Positions 27,982 to 30,496 of a stretch of 64,000 bases of DNA are shown here, piece after piece (the stretch's first letter is position 1; each line of letters begins with the position of its first letter). Under the pieces are notes generated by a model that ran no database searches, had not been told where the DNA came from, and worked only from the letters and a program-made list of their open reading frames with translations. The translations under genes were made by a program, and so were the position numbers. The stretch is from Mucilaginibacter mallensis (GTDB taxonomy: Bacteria; Bacteroidota; Bacteroidia; Sphingobacteriales; Sphingobacteriaceae), in NCBI RefSeq assembly GCF_900105165.1, contig NZ_LT629740.1, forward strand, positions 5,766,001 to 5,830,000, written 5' to 3'.

Positions 27982-28182
27982 TTAATCTTCGTCATCCAGC
28001 ATAAATACTTCTTCCACAGGTTTTCCAAATACCCGGGCAATTTTTAATGCCAGTACAGTCGAGGGTACATAGCGGTTACTTTCGATAGTATTTATGGTTT
28101 GTCGCGATACACCGATCAGCTCGGCAAGCTCGGCCTGGGTGATGTTTTTTATGGCGCGCTCAACGCGGATGTTATTTTTCAT
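27982..28182 (-). CDS. Small HTH transcriptional regulator (XRE type)
   Basis: A 66-residue protein that is essentially one Cro/CI-type helix-turn-helix: ITQAELAELIGVSRQTINTI is the DNA-binding core, followed by PSTVLALKIARVFGKPVEEV and an acidic end. Its start overlaps the end of the membrane protein gene by four bases (ATGA). Short regulators of this type paired with a membrane protein are common in Bacteroidota and Firmicutes and often regulate their own operon. The palindrome at 28647-28666 is a candidate operator. Confidence 0.9.
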   Translation of the reverse strand: MKNNIRVERAIKNITQAELAELIGVSRQTINTIESNRYVPSTVLALKIARVFGKPVEEVFMLDDED

Positions 28183-28610
28183 CGCAGGTCCCCATCCCTT
28201 TTAAGTAAACGGTTGTTCTGGAAGATCTTCCACTGAAAGCGCACTATAAAGAATACCAGCGGTACCAGTAAATTAAGGAACAGGATATGCTGGGTATCAC
28301 TAGTTAAAATTAAGCTGACGATAAGCAGTACGTAGTTGACATAGATGGCCCATTGTAATGAATCCAGCCGCAGTTGGGAGATCTGCTCATCTTCTATCCT
28401 TTCTTTTGCAAAAGCAACCAAAAACAAGCCAATAGCCATCAGCAGCGTAGTGGCCATAAAGAACAGGTGCTCGCTGCTCAGCAAACCCTCTCCCGGATTA
28501 TGCGCATAAAAACCAAGATGTTTCCTGAACAGTACCACAGGTACATGCGCTACAAACAAGCACCAGCCCAAATACCGGCACCAAAACGGAAATAAAAAGC
28601 GTGATTTCAT
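28179..28610 (-). CDS. Four-helix membrane protein, partner of the small HTH regulator
   Basis: A 143-residue membrane protein with four predicted helices: YLGWCLFVAHVPVVLF, LFFMATTLLMAIGLFLVAF, LQWAIYVNYVLLIVSLILT and ILFLNLLVPLVFFIVRF. I do not recognise a named family. It is cotranscribed with and overlaps the HTH gene. A role as a sensor or as a target of the regulator is possible, but there is no catalytic motif to support one. Confidence 0.8.
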   Translation of the reverse strand: MKSRFLFPFWCRYLGWCLFVAHVPVVLFRKHLGFYAHNPGEGLLSSEHLFFMATTLLMAIGLFLVAFAKERIEDEQISQLRLDSLQWAIYVNYVLLIVSLILTSDTQHILFLNLLVPLVFFIVRFQWKIFQNNRLLKRDGDLR

Positions 28611-29108: not shown

Positions 29109-29852
29109 ATGAAAATAATAATACTATTATTATTGTTGAGCCCTATGTGTTCCATGGGCCAAATAGCACATGGGACATCTGTTGCATGTTTTATTCAAGA
29201 CAATACTATTTGGATTGCAGCTGATTCAAAAATAGCCCACGAAGATGGCTCCTATTTTCTTGGATGCAAAATTAAATCATATAAGGGTTTTGTTTTTTGC
29301 ATGGCGGGAATTTATTCCTATGGAAAAGATTACGATGCTTATTCAATCGTGGGTAAATCTATCGATGAAAACGCGGATTTTAATTCTTTAATAGCAAAAA
29401 CAAGGAAGCGATTAATTAACGGACTATCTAAGGTAATAGAAAACGTAAAAAAAACATCTCCTCAAAATATAAATGACACAATTCCTGTTTTAACGACCTT
29501 GATTTGCGACATGGAAAAAAATAAGTTAAGATTCACTTTTTACTCAATTTATTACAGAAATAATAAGCTAATAGATTCGATATTAATAACTGACAAGGGC
29601 ATGAATAAAGACTCTTCTTTCCAAGATCAATTCGGTAGTAGACCGCATACAATACCTATTTTTACCCAGGGGCAATCTGCTCCTTTGGATTCCAATCCGC
29701 TTTTTAAGATAAATTCACCGGTTGAATATGTTTATTACATGGTTTATTTAAGAACAAAAGCAGAACCAAAAACCGTGGGATTGCCTATAAGTGTAGCCAT
29801 GTTTAGTAACAAAGGCATCCATTGGTATTATAATGACCTTAATTGCCGATGA
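29109..29852 (+). CDS. Secreted Ntn-hydrolase-like (proteasome beta-like) protein
   Basis: A 247-residue protein with an N-terminal signal peptide (MKIIILLLLLSPMCS). Directly after it comes GTSVACFIQDNTIWIAADSK, strongly reminiscent of the start of mature proteasome beta subunits and HslV. If Thr23 is the N-terminal nucleophile after a Gly-Thr cut, Asp39 falls at position 17 and Lys54 at position 32, close to the Thr1/Asp17/Lys33 catalytic set; FVFCMAGIYSYGKDYDA follows where proteasome subunits have their AG-x-x-x-D segment. Export would be unusual for this fold. The gene is clearly more AT-rich than its neighbours, opposes them in direction, and has its own promoter. The assignment rests on pattern only. 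Confidence 0.6.
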   Translation: MKIIILLLLLSPMCSMGQIAHGTSVACFIQDNTIWIAADSKIAHEDGSYFLGCKIKSYKGFVFCMAGIYSYGKDYDAYSIVGKSIDENADFNSLIAKTRKRLINGLSKVIENVKKTSPQNINDTIPVLTTLICDMEKNKLRFTFYSIYYRNNKLIDSILITDKGMNKDSSFQDQFGSRPHTIPIFTQGQSAPLDSNPLFKINSPVEYVYYMVYLRTKAEPKTVGLPISVAMFSNKGIHWYYNDLNCR

Positions 29853-29971: not shown

Positions 29972-30496
29972 CTAATCCAAATAAATCTCCAACAATCCAT
30001 CCGGCAGATCAATAAACACAATACTTTTCACAACATCAATGCCTTTAATAATATCTTCATTTAATGGAAACAGCACTTCGCAGCCTTTGTAAGTTACGTT
30101 GGCTATCAGTTGCTGCGGGTATTCGTTTATTTCGGTTATGATGCCCAGCTCGCCTTCGTTTTCGTCAATGGCGGTAAAGCCTTTCAGGTCCTTTAGGGTA
30201 AACTCGCTTTTTTTCTTTTTGGGTTTTTGTTTGTTGTTAAGGTAAACATCCTTTTTTGCAAGCGGGGTAGCTTTTTCAATGGTATCAATATCCTCCAGGT
30301 ACAGGTAAGCGGTATTCTTCATCGGATATTTTATCGATTCAACAAAATAAGGGATCAGCTTGCCGGCCACATCAATAAATATCGCGGTGATATCAATATC
30401 AGCCAGGTTATCAAAATCAACATATAATTGCAGCTCGCCTTTAAGCCCGCGGGTTTTTAATATGCTGCCTATCCTGAAACAATCTTCGATCTTCAT
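29972..30496 (-). CDS. rimM: Ribosome maturation factor RimM
   Basis: A 174-residue protein with the two RimM domains: N-terminal FRIGSILKTRGLKGELQLYV and the PRC-barrel half containing DLKGFTAIDENEGELGIITE and ending FPLNEDIIKGIDVV. RimM helps assemble the 30S head and binds S19. It lies 173 bp downstream of rpsP. Its normal downstream neighbour trmD starts only at 27482. Confidence 0.95.
   Translation of the reverse strand: MKIEDCFRIGSILKTRGLKGELQLYVDFDNLADIDITAIFIDVAGKLIPYFVESIKYPMKNTAYLYLEDIDTIEKATPLAKKDVYLNNKQKPKKKKSEFTLKDLKGFTAIDENEGELGIITEINEYPQQLIANVTYKGCEVLFPLNEDIIKGIDVVKSIVFIDLPDGLLEIYLD

Follow-up and report, generated by a model that had tools for sequence, protein, structure and literature searches.

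Can a proteasome-like enzyme work outside the cytoplasm? The relatives of the proteasome have so far been regarded as machines of the cytosol, most of them ring-forming, and one gene on the chromosome of the soil bacterium Mucilaginibacter mallensis raises the question. In the 64,000-nucleotide stretch of DNA that was analysed (the window), an open reading frame on the + strand (29109-29852) with an ATG start encodes 247 amino acids; an in-frame stop lies about five codons upstream of the ATG, and the open frame amounts to 252 amino acids. The N-terminus reads MKIIILLLLLSPMCSMGQIAHG and runs on into TSVACF...IWIAADSK. The original prediction had seen here a signal peptide followed by GTSVAC and IWIAADSK, all of which are present in the translated frame. 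It had also placed Asp39 and Lys54 at positions 17 and 32 when Thr23 is counted as 1, and a recount gave the same numbers. The features are collected in Table 1.

Table 1. Features of the locus, in window coordinates (↓ marks a predicted boundary)
Feature	Position	Strand	Basis
Sec signal peptide (predicted), residues 1-17, MKIIILLLLLSPMCSMG	29109..29159	+	hydropathy, S-x-G↓Q site, low pLDDT
Propeptide (predicted), Q18-I-A-H-G22, Gly at -1	29160..29174	+	sequence, relatives, structural register
Mature proteasome-like Ntn domain (predicted), Thr23-Arg247	29175..29849	+	AF2 model, Foldseek, VIA-align
Thr23 codon, predicted N-terminal nucleophile (Thr1)	29175..29177	+	superposition; Thr in 21/21 relatives
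Asp39 codon (Asp17 equivalent)	29223..29225	+	invariant in alignments A6, A7
Lys54 codon (Lys33 equivalent), then Ile55	29268..29270	+	Lys invariant in A6, A7
Gly67 codon (Gly47 oxyanion-hole equivalent)	29307..29309	+	at least 90% conserved in A6, A7; AG as in 20S beta
rimM, right flank, insertion-site marker, not part of the system	29972..30496	-	synteny in L068-L075 without the Ntn gene
Membrane-protein ORF, left flank	28179..28610	-	directly adjoins rimM without the Ntn gene in L070, L072, L073, L074

Searches with the window protein gave no meaningful match in Pfam, NCBIfam, PADLOC or the PDB sequences, and the Pfam Proteasome family (PF00227) was not matched. Hits to toxic-shock toxin (E 0.85) and Arfaptin (0.03) were set aside as noise. 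The sole family member that touches Pfam Proteasome by sequence is L016, a relative from another class (genome G516), with E 0.0024 over the N-terminal region (18.0 bits, under the gathering cut-off of 22.4). Weak matches to the phage family phrog_1040, 'peptidase HslV family', occur in 5/15 members (best 0.008). In profile-profile comparison, Anbu, HslV and beta subunits score 26, 15 and 22 (controls 10-16), which is weak but in register.

A first structure model of the window protein, built on a 3-sequence alignment, already matched 20S subunits in Foldseek. The second, an AF2 model from a 15-sequence alignment (pLDDT 74, pTM 0.75), has the order of beta-sheets and helices of the proteasome fold, with H1 (77-87), H2 (91-116) and no helical insertion; residues 1-20 have pLDDT <50. 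With this model Foldseek returned 749 PDB matches at E<=1e-3, with E 1e-8 to 20S beta subunits, and the best 50 of the 749 are all 20S subunits or Anbu. VIA-align gave Z 15.0-16.5 (rmsd ~3) with 167-180 residues aligned in most rows. The four-layer Ntn sandwich on which the original prediction depended is thus matched by a proteasome-type Ntn fold in the AF2 model, Foldseek and VIA-align. In most VIA-align rows residue 23 of the model lies on residue 1 of solved beta5 or Anbu chains. In beta5 chains that keep the propeptide, the match continues upstream in register (21 to -1, 19 to -3), and residue 22 falls at about position -1 of these chains in the structural alignment. Asp39, Lys54 and Gly67 stand where Asp17, Lys33 and Gly47 are in 20S beta. 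In 20S beta, Thr1 is further supported by Asp166 and Ser169; when the sequences are compared by eye with archaeal 20S beta, these places are taken by Pro220 and Val223. Both residues are largely replaced in Anbu too. The model lacks helix H3, which takes part in contacts between rings, and has residues 177-200 disordered; the predicted absence of H3 argues weakly against a double-ring barrel.

A search of 150 Mucilaginibacter genomes with a 15-row profile found family members in 20, and a contig scan contributed 11 further Mucilaginibacter-type loci. Outside the genus members are rare, with three scattered cases: L016, and L034 (genome G954) and L033 (genome G1173), each from another family. 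L003-L009, L017 and L018 were left out, with partial coverage of the protein and the motif missing. The window protein is closest to L002 (28-31% identity; support of 98/93 in the tree); the deep branching order is unsure because of very long branches within one genus. Among the aligned members, Thr is found in 21/21, Asp in 21/21 at 17 or 18 (at 18 in 11 rows of a sister clade, termed here the TC clade) and Lys-[Ile/Leu/Val] in 21/21, so that Thr23, Asp39 and Lys54 are conserved as the original prediction expected. Because divergent relatives repeat the Thr/Asp/Lys pattern in 21/21 cases and Thr23 superposes on Thr1, we do not regard the pattern as chance. Predicted fold and catalytic residues together place the window protein in the proteasome-like family in the sense of Fuchs et al. 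2021.

Close pairs of relatives show purifying selection (dN/dS 0.06/0.91, 0.13/2.27 and 0.08/0.53), values that describe these relatives and not the window copy, which is too distant for the comparison (nearest relative ~30% identical). The genome that holds L002 (G042) has a second family copy, L114/L115, with the frame broken mid-gene (95 + 161 aa); it is either decayed or mis-assembled. Near L111 an IS1595-type transposase-like ORF was recognised by eye (L111 131-1144), in keeping with mobility. Directly upstream of L033 stands a TIR-domain gene (L033 625-2211 and 2303-3256; PF13676 E 1e-15, ThsB-like in PADLOC), and an apparent tyrosine recombinase, recognised by eye, adjoins as well. This locus may be a defence module in which a proteasome-like enzyme acts in the cytosol.

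The signal peptide was called by inspection and hydropathy. The leader of the window protein has Lys2, a hydrophobic core, S-M-G↓Q and no lipobox. Its maximum 10-residue Kyte-Doolittle mean is 3.05, against 1.04 for the N-terminus of the organism's own cytosolic Anbu. Substrates of signal peptidase I in Bacteroidetes have Gln at +1 in ~71% of cases on average, the Q-rule (PMC5837995). The S-M-G↓Q site fits this rule, and the same Gln +1 logic is seen in L002, L016, L034 and L109. An export-type N-terminal segment is present in 20/21 members, either directly before Thr or before a short propeptide that ends in Gly or Gln, and four layouts can be told apart. In layout A, a signal peptide is followed by Gln at +1 and a 5-12-residue propeptide ending in Gly before Thr (QIAHG↓T in the window protein, QINHG↓T in L002, QTRQG↓T in L016, QPVNNDIIIRHG↓T in L034 and QDGLPIGVRSG↓T in L109); L110 and L112 are placed here with HG↓T after a hydrophobic leader. 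In layout B, Thr comes immediately after the signal peptide, as GFS↓TC in TC-clade members and as SKA↓TC in L114. Layout C is SQ↓TC, in L108 (1483-2226) and L111 (1450-2181); to free Thr there, signal peptidase would have to cut, unusually, behind Gln, or one pyroglutamate would have to be taken off. Layout D has no signal peptide and consists of L033 (MIKSLIFG↓TT). Export, as originally proposed, is supported by the N-terminus of the window protein and by the independent, differing export-type leaders of the relatives, several of which follow the Q-rule.

20S beta subunits cleave themselves after a Gly in position -1, and the Gly22-Thr23 pair of the window sequence has the form of Gly(-1)↓Thr(1) in these subunits. 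We consider it quite probable that the window protein is an exported, proteasome-like Ntn enzyme of the Thr type, activated by signal peptidase I and by self-cleavage at Gly22↓Thr23. The precursor would pass the inner membrane by Sec and be cut by signal peptidase I before Gln18. The folded domain would then remove QIAHG by itself at Gly22↓Thr23, through the chemistry of 20S beta maturation, as the sequence and the structural register suggest. By analogy with the family, the freed amine and hydroxyl of Thr23, together with Asp39, Lys54 and the backbone of Gly67, would attack an amide bond of a periplasmic or extracellular substrate. In the sister (TC) clade the signal peptide ends right before Thr, and signal peptidase itself would therefore unmask the nucleophile.

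The closest comparison is with the 20S beta subunit (PF00227), with which the window protein shares the fold, Thr1/Asp17/Lys33/Gly47 and a propeptide with Gly at -1 before Thr1. It differs in its export-type N-terminus, in Pro/Val for Asp166/Ser169, in an identity of ~9-15%, in giving no PF00227 match and in having no alpha subunit or ATPase nearby. The T1/D17 start is in register with HslV, with a weak profile match, but HslV has no such export-type leader, and no HslU partner was seen near the gene. The window genome itself gave no HslV match. Among the genomes sampled from other classes of the phylum, most contain a match to the proteasome family, and the majority of these matches are HslV-like. 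Anbu resembles the window protein in fold (5nyw Z 15.8) and in a C-terminal VGxPI(D) motif, a weak profile match. In Anbu, however, Thr comes right after Met, there is no export segment and a transglutaminase-like gene adjoins. The window genome carries a separate ordinary Anbu, L019, which matches 5loy at 1e-33 and adjoins a transglutaminase-like gene (L019 1495-3083). The window protein was rejected as an Anbu: it is encoded at a different locus, and the sequence match is limited to the weak C-terminal motif. It was likewise rejected as a connectase, an enzyme without H1 and H2 and with a two-helix insertion between S3 and S4, as the model has H1 and H2 and no insertion. Penicillin V acylase, bile salt hydrolase and AHL acylases are exported Ntn enzymes and share export and Ntn chemistry with the window protein, but they belong to other Ntn families with other topologies and nucleophiles and are absent from the best 50 structural matches.

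The original prediction held that the known relatives form barrels, which is not fully right, as Anbu forms a split ring and connectase is monomeric (PMC8665760); Anbu has no known function (PMC8665760). The survey by Fuchs, Alva and Lupas 2021 described, in addition to 20S, HslV, Anbu, BPH and connectase, 22 further proteasome homologues, among them WPH, PHI, PMI-1 to PMI-6, FC1-5 and GPH, and reported propeptides in Psm-beta and HslV only (PMC8665760). Fold and active site put the window protein in the same proteasome-like family as these 22. Signal peptide, secretion, export and periplasm are nowhere mentioned in the text of the survey (PMC8665760), and no exported proteasome relative was found in the open-access literature searched. 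The present family may overlap one of the survey's clusters; it is set apart from them by the survey's text, not by its sequence sets.

The gene lies between rimM and trmD, on the strand opposite to rpsP-rimM-...-trmD-rplS. Its GC content is 0.333 (GC3 0.298) against 0.419 for the window, so that the description as an AT-rich gene running against a ribosomal operon is accurate. Where the surroundings of rimM were read in genomes of the same genus, this site has no Ntn gene. trmD follows straight after rimM in L071 and L075, and a membrane ORF, with or without an HTH gene, lies between them in L070, L072, L073 and L074. What lies between rimM and trmD varies within the genus: in the window this gap holds a pair of the membrane ORF and a small HTH regulator (27982-28610), in L072 and L073 the membrane ORF stands as two or three tandem copies, and in L071 and L075 the gap is empty. 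Members of the TC clade lie at a small number of sites that recur (close to ribonucleotide reductase, to fabG or to other genes), and the rest occur singly. Low GC, the empty site in relatives and the patchy occurrence point to acquisition as a single gene, in support of the origin first suggested. Neither an alpha subunit nor an AAA+ partner was recognised among the window neighbours, as the original prediction had noted, or as common to the homologous loci. No conserved operon or partner gene was found across the family loci, and there is therefore no candidate ATPase or substrate. Searches of plasmid and phage collections by tblastn with the window protein and L016 gave no match, and no relative was found among viral contigs.

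Most likely, the enzyme needs no unfoldase and has peptides, unfolded proteins or small amides as its substrates, and the window protein would be a hydrolase. A tentative alternative, which we rate as the less probable, is that it is an exported Ntn enzyme which is no protease but an amidase, an acylase or a protein ligase, and whose substrate is a small amide (an acyl-amino acid, a lipopeptide, a molecule of the cell wall or of signalling) or the end of a specific protein. The absence of Asp166 and Ser169 and of a predicted H3 would fit such a role, as would the other exported Ntn enzymes, which are acylases. Connectase, moreover, is a monomeric ligase with a proteasome-like fold (PMC8665760). 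Against this reading, the closest folds are 20S and Anbu, with no acylase in the best 50 of 749 matches, and neighbouring biosynthetic or quorum-sensing genes were not recognised. It is very unlikely that the gene is a dead or decayed acquisition, functionless in this M. mallensis strain. An AT-rich, single and patchy gene with no conserved neighbours could be taken in that sense, as could the broken frame of L114/L115; however, the window ORF is intact with all catalytic residues, and dN is far below dS among close pairs of relatives (window copy not included).

The hydrophobic N-terminus could also be a propeptide, or the true start could be Met16, leaving a cytosolic enzyme like HslV. Met13 and Met16 are present, a start at Met16 would give the propeptide MGQIAHG, and L033 lacks a signal peptide, the 8 residues MIKSLIFG being all that precedes TT. 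We consider this improbable: leaders of the n/h/c type stand at the same place in 20/21 relatives, with differing sequences and the export logic kept, five of them combine a Q-rule Gln at +1 with a Gly-ended propeptide, and the TC-clade leader is part of a conserved reading frame. For the TC clade, not for the window protein, the nucleophile might instead be the Cys that follows Thr, but this is unlikely. Asp is exactly 17 from Cys (18 from Thr) in the 11 TC-clade rows, and MAFFT (A7) pairs Cys with the residue after Gln18-type positions and not with Thr. L002, L108, L111 and L114, however, are also TC and have Asp at 17 from Thr, so that a one-residue hairpin indel accounts for the TC clade; GFS↓T is also a better signal-peptidase site than GFST↓C.

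Beyond the single window protein, an exported Thr-type Ntn enzyme as we read it, we lean towards the view that Bacteroidota hold a whole fast-diverging family of exported proteasome-like proteins. Their Thr would be unmasked outside the cytoplasm, either when a Gly-ended propeptide cleaves itself off or directly by signal peptidase I, and they would be unfoldase-free, perhaps monomeric, extracytoplasmic threonine hydrolases or ligases that spread as single genes. If true, this exported branch would show the proteasome fold working without ATP-driven unfolding and would give a simple model for how the proteasome arose and for how signal peptidase activates Ntn enzymes. It could also yield new extracytoplasmic proteases, amidases or ligases.
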